The notes beneath the pieces are model-generated. The model was not told the origin of the DNA and ran no database searches. It was given only the letters and a program-made list of their open reading frames with translations. From an uncultured Pseudomonadota bacterium (GTDB lineage Bacteria; Pseudomonadota; Gammaproteobacteria; Steroidobacterales; Steroidobacteraceae): 42,112 nucleotides of DNA. The stretch covers positions 1 through 42,112 of the forward strand of contig CAIVTJ010000121.1 in NCBI GenBank assembly GCA_903908825.1, read 5' to 3'. Position numbers and translations under genes: made by a program. Positions 34,151-41,962 of the stretch are shown here, in pieces; positions within the stretch are counted from its first letter, which is position 1, and every line of letters starts with the position of its first letter.

Positions 34151-35527
34151 ATGAACCTGTTGCCGCGCCTGCCGGTGTTTGACCAACGTCGCAGCGGCGT
34201 GTTGTTGCACCCGTCTTCGCTGCTCAATGATTCAAGTCCGGGTGCGTTCGGCACGGCAGCCCGCAGCTTCATCGATTGGTTGGCTGATGCGGGTTTTAGC
34301 GTCTGGCAGGTGTTGCCCTTAGGGCCTACCGGCGCTGACGGGTCGCCCTACTGGGCGCGCTCCGACTTCGCTGGCAACCCGCTGTTCATCGACCCCACGC
34401 AAGAGCCTGCCGGTGGTGAGCGCGCTTTTGCCGACTATTGCCTGGCCCATGAAGCTTGGCTGGATGATTACGCTTTATTCGAAGCGCTGGCTGTGCAGTT
34501 TGAAGGACTGCCCTGGTGGCATTGGCCGGTGCCCTTGCGCGATCGCCATGCCGATGCAGTGTTGGCAGCGACACATTCGCTGCAGCAGGCCATCACGCGC
34601 ATCAAGCGGCAGCAATGGCAGTTTGCCGACCAATGGCAGCAACTGCGCAGCTATGCGCATACACGTGGTGTGCGCTTGTTCGGCGATCTGCCCATCTATG
34701 TGGCACCTGATTCTGTGGCCACGTGGACGCAGCGCGAGCAGTTTCAGTTAGACAGCGCCGGTCGGCCGTCCGAGGTCGCCGGCGTTCCACCCGACTATTT
34801 CAGCGAAGACGGCCAGCTGTGGGGCAACCCGCTGTACGACTGGTCGCACATGGCCGCTGAGAACTACCTGTTCTGGCGGGAACGCCTGGCCGCGCAGATG
34901 AGCCGCTTTGATCTGCTGCGCATCGATCATTTTCGCGGGCTGGCGGCTTATTGGGCCGTGCCGGCGGGCGCAGCGACGGCGCGCGACGGCCAATGGCGGG
35001 AGGCGCCCGGGCAACGCATGTTGGCGGCAGTCCGTCGCGAAATGCCCGATTTACCCCTGGTCGCCGAAGACCTGGGCGTCATCACTCCCGATGTCGATGC
35101 GCTGCGCCGTGAGTTCGGCTTACCCGGCATGCGCGTGCTGCAGTTTGCTTTCGGTGGTGACGCAGGCAACCCGCATCTGCCGCACAACCACTCCCCTGAC
35201 GTTGTCGTCTATACCGGCACGCACGACAACGACACCACGGGCGGCTGGGCTATGCAATTGCCCGAACCGTCTCGCAGCCACGTGCAGGATTATTTGTCGA
35301 TCTGGGATCAGGACATCTCTGAGGCGATGACGCGCGCAGCGCTGGCTTCTGTGGCTGGCTTAGCCATACTGCCCTTGCAGGATGTGCTGCGTTTGGGCAG
35401 TGAGGCGCGCTTGAACACACCCGGTACCGTGATCGGCAATTGGCAATGGCGGGCGCCGCTCGCAGCGTTGACGCCGCGTCTGGCGCAGCAGTATCGCGAG
35501 CTCAACGCCTTATTTGGCCGATGCTGA
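34151..35527 (+). CDS. malQ: 4-alpha-glucanotransferase (amylomaltase)
   Basis: RRSGVLLHPSSL, GPTGADGSPYWARSDFAGNPLFID, LFGDLPIYVAPDSVATW, LLRIDHFRGLAAYWAVPAG, VAEDLGVITPDV, YTGTHDNDTTGGW. Confidence 0.95.
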   Translation: MNLLPRLPVFDQRRSGVLLHPSSLLNDSSPGAFGTAARSFIDWLADAGFSVWQVLPLGPTGADGSPYWARSDFAGNPLFIDPTQEPAGGERAFADYCLAHEAWLDDYALFEALAVQFEGLPWWHWPVPLRDRHADAVLAATHSLQQAITRIKRQQWQFADQWQQLRSYAHTRGVRLFGDLPIYVAPDSVATWTQREQFQLDSAGRPSEVAGVPPDYFSEDGQLWGNPLYDWSHMAAENYLFWRERLAAQMSRFDLLRIDHFRGLAAYWAVPAGAATARDGQWREAPGQRMLAAVRREMPDLPLVAEDLGVITPDVDALRREFGLPGMRVLQFAFGGDAGNPHLPHNHSPDVVVYTGTHDNDTTGGWAMQLPEPSRSHVQDYLSIWDQDISEAMTRAALASVAGLAILPLQDVLRLGSEARLNTPGTVIGNWQWRAPLAALTPRLAQQYRELNALFGRC

Positions 35528-35985
35528 GCCGTTGCCGCACGCGCCTGTGGCTGGGCCTGAGCGCCTTGGCGGTGCTATCAGCTTGTTCCAGCCTGGGTGT
35601 GGTCACCCTCAAACCCGAGGTCACTGTGGCCGATGTCGCGCTCATCAAAGGTGATCTGACGCGTCAGGATTTGCGTCTGCGCTTGCATGTGCGCAACCCC
35701 AATGACCGCGCCTTGGTGGTCAATAGCATCCGCTACGAAGTACAGGTCGCCGGTCAGAAAGTGGTCAGCGGTGCTACGCAACAGGGCTTTGTGGTGCCGG
35801 CCAAGGGCGAGTCTGACTTTGAACTCGATGCCCAAGCAGATCTGGCCTCGGCGGCGCTGCGTATGCTGTCAGACAGTTTGCGCGGTCAGGCCACGGCCTA
35901 TCGCGTGGTGGGTCAGTTGAACCTGGGCAGCGGCCTGATCAGAACACTGCCCTTCGAGCAGCAAGGTCGCTTGGGCGGCCGTTAA
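35521..35985 (+). CDS. LEA type 2 / WHy-domain lipoprotein
   Basis: Lipobox LSAC; LTRQDLRLRLHVRNPNDRALVVNSIRYEVQVAGQKVVSG typical of LEA14/WHy; overlaps the malQ stop. Confidence 0.85.
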   Translation: MLSRCRTRLWLGLSALAVLSACSSLGVVTLKPEVTVADVALIKGDLTRQDLRLRLHVRNPNDRALVVNSIRYEVQVAGQKVVSGATQQGFVVPAKGESDFELDAQADLASAALRMLSDSLRGQATAYRVVGQLNLGSGLIRTLPFEQQGRLGGR

Positions 35986-37148
35986 CCGGCAGAGCCCGCA
36001 GACCGCGCTGCAGCCTGCGCCAAGTTAAGCATCGTGCTGCCTTCGACCAGCAACACACCGGCGACCACCAGCCACAGTGGCAGATGCGTCAGTCTGCGAC
36101 CGACAGTGGTGGTCATCAACAACGGGCCCAGCAGCCACAGATAAGCCGTGCCCCAATGGATCTGCAAGGCCACACCGCCCAGCAGCGATAACAGCGTCAT
36201 CAATGCGAACGGCAATAAGGCGTGGACTTGCAGTAACAGCAGGGCCTCATGTTCGCGTTCTGTTCTGGCCGCCGGTGCCGGCGGTGCGTCCTGGCGATAG
36301 CGCAGGCGCGCCAGCCACGCCAGCAGCAGTGCCACCACAGCCATGGGCGCTGCTCTACCGATGTGATGACCCAAAAACTCCAGTGTGTTGAGTAAGCGCT
36401 GGTAGCCGGGTAAGCCGGCGGTCATCGAATGGCTGGCATATCCGAAGGTCGGGAAATCGTTGCTGACCAGCCAATAGGCATGCGGCAGCAACAGCAGCGC
36501 GCAAACGCCACCGGCGATGAGCAAACCCTTCCCGAACTCGCGCACTTCACCAGCGCGTCCGGGTTGGCGCGCCAGCAAAGCCAGATAAACGACATTGCAG
36601 GCGATGGTCAGTGCCATCTGATATTTGGATAAAGCACCGCAACCCCAGATGAGGCCCAGCAACACCCACCACCGCGTGCGCAGTGCCTCGGCGCAGCGCC
36701 AGATGCACAGCGTGGCGGCCGCATGCGCGAGCATCAGCGCGGTGTTGTGGTTGAAGTAGCGCACATGGCTGGTGTAGTAGGTGATGCCGCAGATCAGCAG
36801 CACGCTGATGAGGGCGCGGCGGCGATCGAGTAATTCATCGGTCAGCAGCCAGGCCAGCCACAGCATCGCGCCGGTGAACAGCGCGCCCAGCGCATAGGTC
36901 GTGGCTACGCCGTGCGGCAGCAGCAGCTCGGTAGCGCCGAGTACCCAGGTCGGAAACGGCGGATGTTTGGCATAACCCCACGCCAGATGCTGCACCCAAT
37001 CGAGCTGTTCGTAATTGTCGACCGGTACTTTCCAGTGGCCCCAATAAGGCGTGAGCGTCCACACCGCCAGGTGCAGTACGACAAACAGCAGCAGCAGCCA
37101 CGGCAGCCGTGGCGAGTCTGTGGAGTGTTGTCGCGTGGGCATGGTCAT
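35982..37148 (-). CDS. GT39/ArnT-like polyprenyl-phosphate sugar transferase
   Basis: Multi-TM GT-C protein with DNYEQLDW...YAKHPPFPTWVLGATELL N-terminal loop and LSKYQMAL; overlaps the upstream gene by ATGA. Confidence 0.85.
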   Translation of the reverse strand: MTMPTRQHSTDSPRLPWLLLLFVVLHLAVWTLTPYWGHWKVPVDNYEQLDWVQHLAWGYAKHPPFPTWVLGATELLLPHGVATTYALGALFTGAMLWLAWLLTDELLDRRRALISVLLICGITYYTSHVRYFNHNTALMLAHAAATLCIWRCAEALRTRWWVLLGLIWGCGALSKYQMALTIACNVVYLALLARQPGRAGEVREFGKGLLIAGGVCALLLLPHAYWLVSNDFPTFGYASHSMTAGLPGYQRLLNTLEFLGHHIGRAAPMAVVALLLAWLARLRYRQDAPPAPAARTEREHEALLLLQVHALLPFALMTLLSLLGGVALQIHWGTAYLWLLGPLLMTTTVGRRLTHLPLWLVVAGVLLVEGSTMLNLAQAAARSAGSAG

Positions 37149-37939
37149 GCGGTGGGCGCTTTCAGGCAGACTCGGGTCTCTTCTTGTAAGGCCAACCAGT
37201 GCGGCGAGGCAAGGTAGCGGTGTTCAGCGGCACGCGCCGCACTGGTGTGGGGTCCGGGCAGTTCGGGGTGGCACATGAGCACGCCACCGTCTGCCAAGCC
37301 GGCCAACCAGCCGCGCAGGCGCGTATCGTAACCGCTTTCACTGACCAGATCGTACACACCCGCAAAGTCGCTGTTGCTGCGCAAGCCCCGCAGCCGCAAC
37401 TGCCGGCGCAGAGCCTTAGCACCCAGCAGGCCGATCACGGCGGCTTTAGCACCGCGATAGCGCTGCGGCCAGGTGCAGCGTAGCCACAGGTGTGTATTGC
37501 CGCGATGCTGCAACTCTGCCAGCAGCAGGTCGCGGATCACCGGGAACTGATGCACATGTTCGTGACCATCGATGAAATCCGGTGGTGTGCCGAACAGCGT
37601 TTCGAAACGTTGCAACTGCCGTGCGATCTCGGTGCGCAAGGCGCTACGGTCCAGTCGCAGCCGCAGATAAGTCGCGGCGATCCAGCCGGTCAGCGGGCGG
37701 GTGCCTGAAAAGACTTTGTTCTCGGTCAGGTTCAGGTGCAGGCCGACCGCTAAGTCCGGACGCAGTGCGCGCAGCGCCGGCAGGTGCTCTGCCACATAGG
37801 GGCCGTCAACGGCGCAACTGGTGGCGTTGATGGCACCCGCCGCACCCAACTGCAAGATCGACTGACACGCGGCCTGGCTTAAGCCAAAGTCATCGGCACA
37901 CACGATGATGCGCCGCAGCTCTGGCGCTGGCGCGTTCAC
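37145..37939 (-). CDS. ChbG/YdjC/HpnK-family carbohydrate deacetylase (NaxD-like)
   Basis: IIVCADDFGLSQAACQSI, VGLHLNLTE, DFIDGHEHVHQFPVIRDLLL, VLMCHPELPGP motifs; GTG start overlapping the upstream stop (GTGA). Confidence 0.9.
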   Translation of the reverse strand: MNAPAPELRRIIVCADDFGLSQAACQSILQLGAAGAINATSCAVDGPYVAEHLPALRALRPDLAVGLHLNLTENKVFSGTRPLTGWIAATYLRLRLDRSALRTEIARQLQRFETLFGTPPDFIDGHEHVHQFPVIRDLLLAELQHRGNTHLWLRCTWPQRYRGAKAAVIGLLGAKALRRQLRLRGLRSNSDFAGVYDLVSESGYDTRLRGWLAGLADGGVLMCHPELPGPHTSAARAAEHRYLASPHWLALQEETRVCLKAPTA

Positions 37940-38934
37940 CGGTGCGGGCCACCGGGTTGCAGCGGTCTGGCGCCGGTGCCGGTTTCGCGGCTGATCAGAT
38001 AACGCGGCCGTTGTTTGACCTCTTCAAAAATGCGCCCGACATATTCGCCGACGATACCCAGCGAGATCAGTTGCACGCCCGACAGGAAGAACACGGCCGC
38101 CGCCAGCGTCGCAAAGCCGGGGATCTCCTGGCCCAGAAACAGCTTCTCGAACACGATCCACAAGGCCATCAGAAACGAGATGACCGAGATGCCTAAGCCT
38201 GCCAGCATGACCATACGCAGTGGCTTAACCGAAAAAGCCGTGACGCCGGTGGCCGCCAGGCTGGCCAGGCTCAGCGGGCTGAACTTGCTCTCGCCTGACA
38301 CGCGCTCTTCCATGGTGATGGCCAGCCCTTCCGAGCGAAAGCCGACCCAGCCATACAGGCCTTTCATGAAACGGTTGCGCTCTGGCAGTGCGCACAAGGC
38401 ATCGACTACGCAGCGATCGAGCAGGCGGAAATCGCCGGCATCGGCTGGAATCTGCGCGCCATGACGCGAGGCGACCAGGCGGTAGAACAGCCGCGAACCC
38501 AAACGGCGCAGCGCCGGTTCCTGATCGCGGTCGGCCTTGGTGGTGTAGACCATGTCGACGCCGGCCTGCCAGCGTTCGACCATGCGCGGGATGACCGACA
38601 GCGGATGCTGGAAGTCCGCATCGAGCAGGACAACACAGTCGCCGGTCGCAGCATCCAGCCCGGCCTGCAAAGCGGCTTCTTTGCCGAAGTTGCGCGACAA
38701 CTCGATGTAATGCACCGGCAAGTGCTGCGCCGCCCGCGCGACGATGGCACCGGTGTCGTCGCTGCTGCCGTCATTGACCACAACGATGTCCACATCATCG
38801 CTGAGGCTGCGGACCATGGCGGTCAGTTGCGTCAGGAAGTCGTCAATCTGCTGCGCTTCGTTATAGGCGGGCACCACGCAGGAGAGGCGGAACTTGCCGT
38901 CCGGATGCCGCAGCGCTGGGGGTGTGTCGATCAT
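37936..38934 (-). CDS. GT2 polyprenyl-phosphate glycosyltransferase (DPM1/ArnC/GtrB-like)
   Basis: LSCVVPAYNEAQQIDDFL, VVVNDGSSDDT, ELSRNFGKEAALQAGLDAATGD, LLDADFQHP, two C-terminal TM helices, GIVGEYVGRIFEEVKQRPRYLI. Confidence 0.93.
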   Translation of the reverse strand: MIDTPPALRHPDGKFRLSCVVPAYNEAQQIDDFLTQLTAMVRSLSDDVDIVVVNDGSSDDTGAIVARAAQHLPVHYIELSRNFGKEAALQAGLDAATGDCVVLLDADFQHPLSVIPRMVERWQAGVDMVYTTKADRDQEPALRRLGSRLFYRLVASRHGAQIPADAGDFRLLDRCVVDALCALPERNRFMKGLYGWVGFRSEGLAITMEERVSGESKFSPLSLASLAATGVTAFSVKPLRMVMLAGLGISVISFLMALWIVFEKLFLGQEIPGFATLAAAVFFLSGVQLISLGIVGEYVGRIFEEVKQRPRYLISRETGTGARPLQPGGPHR

Positions 38935-40397
38935 GTGCGCGGTCCTTGCAGCAGGTGCTGGTACAGCCGTTCATAGGCGCCGACTTGCTTGCGCCAGGAG
39001 AAGTCCTGCGCCATGCCGTTTTGCACCAGCCGTCGCCAGAGCGCTTTGTGTTGATACAGGTCGAGCGCGGTGTTGAGGCCCCAGGCGACGCCACCACCGT
39101 CAAAATCGTTGAACACGACGCCGGTGCCGCTGCGGGTGTCGGCATCGAACTGTTGCACCGAGTCGGCCAGGCCGCCGGTGCGGCGCACCACCGGCACCGT
39201 GCCATAACGCAGGCTGTACATCTGGTTGAGGCCGCAGGGCTCATACAGTGAGGGCATCAGGAAGATGTCACTGCCGGCTTCGATCCAGTGCGACAGTTCC
39301 TCGTTATAGCCACGCTGAAAGGCCACGCGCTGCGGCCAAAGTTGCGCCAGCGCGGCAAAAAAATCTTCGTAGCGCGCATCGCCGCTGCCCAGTACCACCA
39401 GACTCGCGTCGCGTTCCTGCAGCAGCTGCGGCAGTGTATCGAACAGCAGTTCAAAGCCTTTTTGCAGCGTCAGGCGACTGACCACACCGATCAGCGGTCG
39501 CTGCGCCAGCGCTTCCAGCCCGACGCGCTGTTGCAGCAGCTGTTTGAGCTCGGCCTTGATGCCCAGCTGATTAGCGTTGTAATGCCGCGGCAGGTGGCGG
39601 TCGTGTCGCGGGTCCCAGTCCTCGTAATCGACGCCATTGAGCAGGCCGGTCAGATGCCCTGCGCGCTGACGCAATACGCCATCGAGGCCCCAGCCGTGTT
39701 CGGCCGTCTGGATCTCCTGCGCGTAAGTGGGGCTCACGGTGCTGATGTGGTCGGCGTGCAGGATGCCCTCGCGCAGCGGATTGATGCGGCCGGCGTAGCG
39801 TTCACCGGCATCCAGCTGACCGGTTGCCGGGCCCAGACCCGTGTCGGCCGCAAGGTCCGAACTGAAGCTGCCCTGATAGCCCAGGTTGTGTAGCGTCAGC
39901 AAGCTGCGGGTTTCGGCAAACAGGCTGTCCCACGCAAACACGGTGCGCAGCAGCAGCGGTGCCAGCGCGGTGTGCCAGTCGTTGCAATGCAGGATGTGCG
40001 GCGCAAAGCCCATGCGCTGGCAGGCCAACAGCGCCGCGTGGGTCAGCGCGATGAAGCGCAGGTGTTCATCGACGTCGTTGGTATAGAGGCTGCCGCGCGC
40101 ATACAGCTGCGGGCAGTCGATGAGGTAGACCATGGTGCTGGCGCCGGGCAGGCGTGCCGTGTGCACGTCAAACCGCAGCGCATGACTGCCCAGTTGCAGC
40201 GGCACGTTCTGCAGGAACTCGACCGGCCAGACTTCAAGCGTGCTGCGGTCTATTTGCGCGTAGAGCGGCATGAACAGCCGGATGTCATGGCCGGCCGCAT
40301 GCAGATATTTGGCCAGTGCGCCAGACACGTCTGCCAGTCCACCGGTTTTGGCCAGTGGCGCAACTTCAGAGGCGATAAAGCAGATCCGCAGTGCCAT
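38931..40397 (-). CDS. glgA: Glycogen synthase (ADP-glucose)
   Basis: MALRICFIASEVAPLAKTGGLADVSGALAKYL, LHCNDWHTALAPLLLR, LTLHNLGYQG, LNGVDYEDWDPRHD, MPSLYEPCGLNQMYSLRYGTVPVVRRTGGLADSV. Confidence 0.96.
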   Translation of the reverse strand: MALRICFIASEVAPLAKTGGLADVSGALAKYLHAAGHDIRLFMPLYAQIDRSTLEVWPVEFLQNVPLQLGSHALRFDVHTARLPGASTMVYLIDCPQLYARGSLYTNDVDEHLRFIALTHAALLACQRMGFAPHILHCNDWHTALAPLLLRTVFAWDSLFAETRSLLTLHNLGYQGSFSSDLAADTGLGPATGQLDAGERYAGRINPLREGILHADHISTVSPTYAQEIQTAEHGWGLDGVLRQRAGHLTGLLNGVDYEDWDPRHDRHLPRHYNANQLGIKAELKQLLQQRVGLEALAQRPLIGVVSRLTLQKGFELLFDTLPQLLQERDASLVVLGSGDARYEDFFAALAQLWPQRVAFQRGYNEELSHWIEAGSDIFLMPSLYEPCGLNQMYSLRYGTVPVVRRTGGLADSVQQFDADTRSGTGVVFNDFDGGGVAWGLNTALDLYQHKALWRRLVQNGMAQDFSWRKQVGAYERLYQHLLQGPRT

Positions 40398-40527
40398 GGC
40401 ACCAGTGTAGCGGTTACCGGTGTCGCTGCGGGTGGCGGATGGGCCCAAGTTTTGAGCGCCAAAGGCCCTAGACCTTCCTGCGGCGGGTTGGTTCCACATC
40501 GCGCAGCATTTTTGTGCGCTGCTTGCC

Positions 40528-40581
40528 GGAAGCAGAAAACAGCCTGTTTTGTTGTATCAGCAAGCTGTTCCGACTGCTTCC
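40528..40581. promoter_or_regulatory. Nested inverted repeats upstream of the RND efflux operon
   Basis: Inner AAAACAG-C-CTGTTTT at 40536-40550; outer GGAAGCAG at 40528-40535 and CTGCTTCC at 40574-40581. Confidence 0.5.
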
Positions 40582-40645
40582 TCGGCAGGCGCTGCAAGTG
40601 CCATACTGCGACCTCAACAAAAGCCAATTTTTAAGGCGCGCTCTC

Positions 40646-41962
40646 ATGGCCGATATCCGTTCTGTTGTCACCGCTGTTGCTGTCGTCGCTGCGCTTGCTT
40701 GCGGCGGATGGGCGGTCTATGCCGCGAAGCACACCGGGGCCGGGGGCGGCGGCTTTGCGCAGCAAGGCCAAGCCGGTGGTGGTGGTGGCGGAGAGCGCCG
40801 CAATGCCAACGGTGGCGCCACCAACGGCGCGGCCAGCGGTGGTAACGGTGGTTCCGCGCAGAGAGCGCAGGGCGGCCAAGGGGGCGGCCAAGGCGGCCAA
40901 GGCCGGTCTGGTGGCGGCGGTCAGGGCGGCCAGGGCGGGCCGGTCGGCGTGCTGACCGCCGAAGTCCGTATGGCCATTATCGACACCGGGCTCGAGGCCA
41001 TCGGCACGGCGGTGTCCAACGAAGCGGTCAGCGTCACCGCCAAGACTTCCAACATCGTCACGGCCATCCATTTTCAGGACGGTCAGATGGTCAAAGCCCG
41101 CGATGTGCTGGTCGAGCTCGATCACGCACAGGTTACCGCTGAGTTGGCTTCGGCTCAGGCCGACTACACCAACAGCGTCAGTCTGTTCAATCGCAGCAAA
41201 GAACTGGCCGCCATGCAGTCCTTGTCCAAGGCGCAGTTCGAACAGCTCGAAACCAACATGAAATCCAACGAAGCCAAGGTGGCGGCCATACAGGCGCGCT
41301 ACAACGACACGTTTATCCGTGCGCCGTTTAGCGGCCGCGTCGGCCTGCGGCGCGTGAGCTTGGGCGCATTGATCAACCCGGGCACGGTGATCACCACACT
41401 CGATGACTTGAGTGTGGTCAAGGTCGACTTTGCTGTGCCGGACGTATTCATGGCCGAGCTGGGTCGCGCGCAGGCTGTGGCTGCCAAGACGGCTGCCTAT
41501 CCGGGCCGCAAATTCATCGGCAAAGTGGTCAGTGTCGACTCGCGTATCGATCCGAGCTCCCGCTCGATCACTGTGCGTGCGCTGTTGCCTAATCAGGACG
41601 GTGCGCTCAAGCCGGGCATGTTCCTGACGGTCAGCATGGACCGCGATCAACGCAAAGCACTGGTGATCCCTGAGGAAGCGCTGGTGCCTGAGCAGGCACG
41701 GCAGTTCGTCTATGTCATCTTGCCGGGCGATAAAGTGGCCAAACGCGAAGTGCGTATCGGCCGCCGGCAGCCGGGCGAGGTTGAGGTGGTCGAGGGCTTG
41801 GTCAATAACGACCGGGTTGTGGTCGAAGGAACGCTCAAGTTGCGTGAGGGCGCCAGCGTCATCGAACGGCGGCAGGGACAGCCGCCGGCGGGCGCAGAGG
41901 GCGGCGATAAAGCGGCTGCCAAGGCAGCGACTAAGGCACAGGCCAAGGCAGCGACGCCATGA
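40646..41962 (+). CDS. RND efflux transporter periplasmic adaptor subunit
   Basis: N-terminal TM, Gly-rich linker, HlyD-like core (VLVELDHAQVTAELASAQADYTNSVSLFNRSKELAAMQSLSKAQFEQLE; FIRAPFSGRVGLRRVSLGALINPGTVITTLDDLSVVKVDFAVPD). Confidence 0.94.
   Translation: MADIRSVVTAVAVVAALACGGWAVYAAKHTGAGGGGFAQQGQAGGGGGGERRNANGGATNGAASGGNGGSAQRAQGGQGGGQGGQGRSGGGGQGGQGGPVGVLTAEVRMAIIDTGLEAIGTAVSNEAVSVTAKTSNIVTAIHFQDGQMVKARDVLVELDHAQVTAELASAQADYTNSVSLFNRSKELAAMQSLSKAQFEQLETNMKSNEAKVAAIQARYNDTFIRAPFSGRVGLRRVSLGALINPGTVITTLDDLSVVKVDFAVPDVFMAELGRAQAVAAKTAAYPGRKFIGKVVSVDSRIDPSSRSITVRALLPNQDGALKPGMFLTVSMDRDQRKALVIPEEALVPEQARQFVYVILPGDKVAKREVRIGRRQPGEVEVVEGLVNNDRVVVEGTLKLREGASVIERRQGQPPAGAEGGDKAAAKAATKAQAKAATP
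40735..40950 (+). repeat. Low-complexity Gly/Gln/Ala-rich linker coding segment with GGCGGCCAA repeats
   Basis: Encodes GAGGGGFAQQGQAGGGGGGERR...GGQGGGQGGQGRSGGGGQGGQGG; GGCGGCCAA units at 40871, 40883 and 40892. Confidence 0.85.

Follow-up and report, generated by a model that had tools for sequence, protein, structure and literature searches.

A predicted undecaprenyl-phosphate-hexosamine cassette with a compact GT-C transferase beside glgA in an uncultured Steroidobacteraceae bacterium

Why should a glycogen synthase gene run without a break into three genes for what look like steps of envelope sugar transfer? This question is raised by contig CAIVTJ010000121.1 (assembly GCA_903908825.1) from an uncultured bacterium of the Steroidobacteraceae, of which we analysed the 42,112 nucleotides from position 1, here called the window. 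On its minus strand, glgA, a glycosyltransferase (GT) family 2 gene, a YdjC-family deacetylase gene and a GT39-like gene overlap in series by 4 nt. The initial annotation read them as a minimal FlmF2-NaxD-FlmK-like unit that adds a hexosamine to the envelope and might tie this process to carbon storage. Our analysis leads to a different verdict, namely that the cassette joins donor synthesis of the NaxD/Lgm type to a compact, non-ArnT transferase of the GT-C fold, and that the glycogen link is an ordinary genome rearrangement. We consider it probable, though well short of certain, that the three genes downstream of glgA form an undecaprenyl-phosphate-hexosamine cassette with periplasmic transfer, likely to an acceptor in lipopolysaccharide (LPS) or lipid A, and with no tie to glycogen.

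Families were assigned by Pfam and NCBIfam profile matches. The open reading frames and their overlaps are exactly as first described:

38931..40397, minus strand: glgA, ADP-glucose glycogen synthase (TIGR02095, 525 bits), a conserved gene of the host locus, outside the cassette proper
37936..38934, minus strand: GT2 with two C-terminal transmembrane (TM) segments (Glycos_transf_2 PF00535, 110 bits)
37145..37939, minus strand: YdjC-family deacetylase with a GTG start (PF04794, 147 bits)
35982..37148, minus strand: compact GT39-like GT-C transferase of 388 amino acids (aa) (PMT_2 PF13231, 76 bits)
38931..38934, minus strand: overlap of the glgA stop and the GT2 start, ATGA (read from the sequence)
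37936..37939, minus strand: overlap of the GT2 stop and the YdjC start, GTGA (read from the sequence)
37145..37148, minus strand: overlap of the YdjC stop and the GT39 start, ATGA (read from the sequence)

The GT2 start is credible because AAGGA stands 8 nt ahead of its ATG, at 38947-38943 on the minus strand and within the end of glgA. The 4-nt overlaps would be consistent with translational coupling.

The deacetylase, which contains the motif DFIDGHEHVHQFPVIRDLL, exceeds the PF04794 cut-off of 29.7 bits with its 147 bits. It shares the YdjC family and the active-site motifs with HpnK and ChbG, but it falls far under the cut-offs of both families (67 bits against 232.6 for HpnK, TIGR03473; 73 bits against 227 for ChbG, NF002559), as do its relatives from Acinetobacter baumannii and Bordetella ansorpii. 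In a tree of 83 YdjC-family proteins, a 100/100 branch divides 58 rows, which hold the window protein, the A. baumannii protein and two B. ansorpii proteins, from 25 rows, among which are 13 HpnK proteins above their cut-off and Escherichia coli ChbG. The references in this tree, from which Francisella NaxD is absent, owe their names to gene order or to being unique: we presume the A. baumannii gene to be naxD from its single place in chromosome-size records and its deacetylase-GT2-GtrA-GT39 cluster, and the B. ansorpii protein to be Lgm-type from the order GT2, ArnT-like GT, deacetylase. The signature DGHxHxHQ[FL]P occurs in 38/58 rows on the NaxD/Lgm side versus 1/25 on the HpnK/ChbG side, and in the alignment the motifs ADDF, GLH, DGHxHxH and CHP are all intact in the window protein. 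Both the placement with NaxD and LgmC and the link between signature and NaxD group, as put forward in the initial annotation, thus hold, and the family cut-offs together with the tree exclude an HpnK or ChbG identity. We infer a NaxD/Lgm-side protein, predicted to deacetylate undecaprenyl-phosphate-linked N-acetylhexosamine (HexNAc).

The GT2 is similarly placed by its relatives and by its neighbours. Its best PDB match is GtrB sll0501 at 265 bits, against 172 bits for ArnC, and it scores 335, 308 and 299 bits against GT2 proteins encoded next to YdjC genes versus 172 bits against E. coli ArnC. In a class-wide search, the best eight non-self matches all have a YdjC gene within ~3 kb on the same contig, and 38 of the 41 loci retrieved by the deacetylase alone contain a GT2, mostly adjacent to it. 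The gene context is that of FlmF2 and LgmA, with a GT2 of the GtrB/ArnC superfamily that ends in a TM pair and stands beside a NaxD-side deacetylase. The protein is therefore best described as a predicted polyprenyl-phosphate N-acetylhexosaminyltransferase of this superfamily. Because relatives of the deacetylase almost always adjoin a GT2, a pathway from undecaprenyl-phosphate-HexNAc to undecaprenyl-phosphate-hexosamine is well supported, as a sequence-based prediction, for the pair.

In the pathway that we propose, the GT2 would load HexNAc from a UDP-sugar onto undecaprenyl phosphate at the cytoplasmic side, and the YdjC protein, judging from its NaxD-side placement and intact active-site motifs, would take off the acetyl group to leave a positively charged hexosamine. 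The lipid-linked sugar would then be flipped, possibly by a GtrA protein encoded elsewhere; the window cassette has no gtrA, and the single GtrA gene of this genome is on contig C323, while a related cassette (genome G017) has one inside it. The compact GT-C enzyme would finally move the sugar to an envelope acceptor in the periplasm. The acceptor, which is the weakest step, may be a phosphate of LPS/lipid A or an inner-core position, alongside the separate arn pathway for 4-amino-4-deoxy-L-arabinose (Ara4N).

Comparison with known systems shows how far the resemblance extends. The A. baumannii cluster NaxD-GT2-GtrA-GT39 puts galactosamine on lipid A (PMC6635527); its deacetylase lies on the same side of the tree, its GT2 is the 299-bit match, and both are likewise clustered with a GT39. 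However, that GT39, at 548 aa, is ArnT-like (186 bits), unlike the compact and separate window protein, and the cluster includes GtrA. In Bordetella, LgmA-LgmB-LgmC decorate lipid A phosphates with glucosamine (PMC11401268, PMC4993483). The window deacetylase shares 45-46% identity with a B. ansorpii protein encoded in the order GT2, ArnT-like GT, YdjC; this gene order differs from that of the window, and the LgmB-type GT is ArnT-like, with ~550 aa. The chemistry is proposed to be the same as that of Francisella FlmF2-NaxD-FlmK (PMC4688374), whose proteins were left out of our trees, but FlmK targets lipid A, whereas the acceptor of the window GT39 is a prediction. The Ara4N pathway of ArnC, ArnD and ArnT shares undecaprenyl-phosphate loading, acyl removal and GT-C transfer, although ArnD belongs to a different deacylase family and the arn genes are separate in the window genome. 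The GpgSDF system for glucosaminyl-phosphatidylglycerol also uses a GT and then a sugar deacetylase, but GpgD belongs to COG3233, GpgS is a family 4 GT, the acceptor is phosphatidylglycerol, and there is no GT-C enzyme (PMC12713373). A GpgD-type modification was rejected on these differences in deacetylase and GT families.

For the third protein, a model from AlphaFold2 (built on a five-sequence alignment; predicted local distance difference test, pLDDT, 81) has a GT-C fold whose nearest PDB fold is that of ArnT (5f15; E=2.4e-4, TMq 0.59), while a PDB search by sequence found nothing. Among the 60 GT-C proteins of a second tree, assembled without Francisella FlmK, the compact GT39 proteins form a single clade at 100/99, and both trees show this clade and the matching YdjC clade travelling together. 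The loop residues DN.EQ and KHPP.P are invariant in the compact GT39 alignment. Going by the model, the protein may work like a GT-C polyprenyl-phosphate-sugar transferase that stands outside the LgmB/ArnT group, with hexosaminyl transfer predicted to take place in the periplasm.

Several points weigh against the reading that we favour, and some of them concern this last enzyme. A 100/99 branch parts the window group from the one that holds ArnT, the LgmB-type proteins and the A. baumannii GT39. Even with E values as high as 10 allowed, phmmer matches the window GT39 neither to the A. baumannii GT39 nor to ArnT of E. coli, whereas a Variovorax PMT_2 protein is matched at E=2e-23. ArnT requires the Tyr and Lys of its RYA and YFEKP motifs in the first periplasmic loop, as well as a Glu from a periplasmic segment at its C-terminal end (PMC5377068). 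In place of these motifs the window protein carries DNYEQ and YAKHPPFP, of which KHPP is a partial likeness only, and it stops after its last TM helix, without the C-terminal periplasmic domain; a longer GT39 relative, at locus L032, bears an extra C-terminal region. As the protein is not a relative within the ArnT/LgmB subfamily, a lipid A acceptor does not follow from homology. To this it must be added that the donor is only presumed to be UDP-HexNAc, that these genomes are also predicted to have an arn pathway dedicated to lipid A, and that the congeners G003 and G006 hold the GT2-YdjC pair (loci L019 and L020) without a GT39 there and without a compact GT39 anywhere else in their genomes.

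These observations bear most directly on the proposal of a FlmF2-NaxD-FlmK or LgmA-C-B unit, in which the whole Francisella/Bordetella pathway, including its lipid A phosphate acceptor, would operate here and the GT39 would be a shortened ortholog of FlmK or LgmB. The three activities are alike, the deacetylase is on the NaxD/Lgm side and the GT-C fold is closest to ArnT; nevertheless, the separation of the GT39 by tree, by phmmer and by its missing RYA motif and C-terminal domain makes such orthology unlikely. The deacetylase and GT2 parts of the initial proposal therefore stand, while its FlmK-like third gene does not. A tentative alternative within our own reading is that the compact GT39 proteins are a separate subfamily of hexosaminyltransferases whose acceptor differs from the lipid A phosphates used by ArnT, LgmB and FlmK, and which acts beside the arn pathway.

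The distribution of arn genes brings in a further explanation, that the amino-sugar donor made by the GT2-YdjC pair is used by a transferase from another locus, for instance ArnT from the arn operon, with the compact GT39 being an accessory or serving another acceptor. ArnC is found at 307 bits or more in 9/9 genomes with a compact-clade cassette (G000, which is the window genome, G001-G003, G005, G006, G010, G017 and G034) and in 0/4 tested genomes without one (G004, G007, G008 and G025), a difference that is suggestive only (Fisher's test p=0.0014), as the genomes are related, two are incomplete and phylogeny is uncontrolled. Near lysS in G003 the genes run ArnT-ArnB-ArnC-formyltransferase-ArnD. 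The window genome has two ArnT-like fragments, one cut off by the end of contig C132 and the other at the start of contig C355, where ArnC comes next (loci L253 and L267); we take these pieces to be one broken locus. Transfer in trans would suit this co-occurrence and the two congeners that retain GT2-YdjC and ArnT but lack the compact GT39. On the other hand, the arn operon already has a GT2, a formyltransferase and a deformylase gene of its own, the sample is small and phylogenetically uncontrolled, and G025 carries a separate GT2-GtrA-YdjC set without arn, so such a set can occur without it. We regard this explanation as doubtful, and consider that, beside arn, the cassette probably provides a second amino-sugar system.

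As for the acceptor of the cassette as we read it, one related locus (L031:659-4223) has genes for a histidine kinase, a response regulator, a DUF3019 protein and MipA divergent from a compact cassette, and modules of this kind have been tied to the polymyxin response (PMC10936184, PMC13413815). This setting, which is suggestive of envelope stress, and the systems already known from Bordetella and A. baumannii (PMC6635527, PMC4993483, PMC11401268) favour an LPS acceptor, and lipid A is a plausible candidate. Nonetheless, since the transferase is distinct and the arn genes are separate, the sugar may go to another acceptor. Osmoregulated periplasmic glucan came into consideration from G010, in which the cassette follows opgG and the genes for a 716-aa GT2, MdoG, GT2, YdjC and GT39 all run in one direction (L024:3387-9222). 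However, an MdoG match is absent from the window genome and from the other five cassette-bearing congeners, which leaves this acceptor with hardly any probability, and we ruled it out for the window on that absence. MdoG is also present in the cassette-less genomes G004 and G008.

There remains the position behind glgA. This gene is found in 13/13 genomes tested, cassette or none, and within the genus the cassette sits between glgA and a convergent gene by which the distal edge of the insertion site can be recognised:

35440..35985, plus strand: LEA2-domain protein, convergent neighbour (PF03168, 62 bits)

The complete gene set occupies this site in G002, and the glgA/GT2 overlap recurs in the congeners G002 and G003 but not in G001 or G006. 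FecR and TonB-receptor genes follow glgA in G001 and lie directly upstream of GT2 (L018:4343-7872); G005 is probably arranged likewise across two contigs, with the TonB receptor directly upstream of GT2 (L022:11520-13394). In G006, ~320 bp separate glgA from GT2, and a search of this gap for remnants of FecR or TonB-receptor genes found none. The site is empty, with LEA2 abutting glgA, in G004, in G007 and, outside the genus, in G025 (L099, L100, L104), and in the cassette-less G008 it holds an ATPase-like gene. In no locus outside the genus does glgA adjoin the cassette, which there has other neighbours, such as opgG, a divergent FecI-FecR-TonB receptor set (G017, L023) or an RND pump (G034). 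RND and HlyD neighbours were also tried as partners and rejected, as HlyD flanks glgA in the cassette-less G008 too and so belongs to the host locus. The most economical reading of these gene orders would be an insertion beside glgA, or a loss in some species, that produced a genus-level arrangement. A separate observation on the host gene is that the glgA match in the cassette-less G004 (C47:66755-68212, L080) contains one in-frame TAA.

These data bear on the question with which we began. The idea that co-translation with glgA couples envelope glycosylation functionally to glycogen storage would draw on the glgA/GT2 overlap and the upstream AAGGA in the window, and on the recurrence of the overlap in two congeners. 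Against it stand the restriction to one genus, the empty sites, the intervening genes and the gap, and the different neighbours elsewhere. We hold such coupling to be very improbable, and the synteny rules it out as an account of this locus. The suggested tie to carbon storage is thus not upheld, and the order glgA-GT2-YdjC-GT39 proved not to be general, being broken by interruptions, empty sites and GT39-less congeners.

Judging from the cassette, donor-making pairs of the NaxD type may work with final transferases of different kinds, and a NaxD-like gene alone is then no predictor of lipid A modification. A compact GT-C enzyme without the C-terminal domain also offers a simple test case for the role of that domain in ArnT-type enzymes. 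The co-occurrence with arn makes it testable whether two amino-sugar systems serve two envelope targets in one cell.

The GC content of the cassette (0.62-0.64) is the same as that of its neighbours, with no compositional sign of recent transfer. The convergent neighbours in the window are the LEA2, malQ and GH57 genes, and the gene divergent from glgA (40514-41962) encodes an adaptor of the HlyD type in which a long glycine-rich stretch lies close to the N-terminus.

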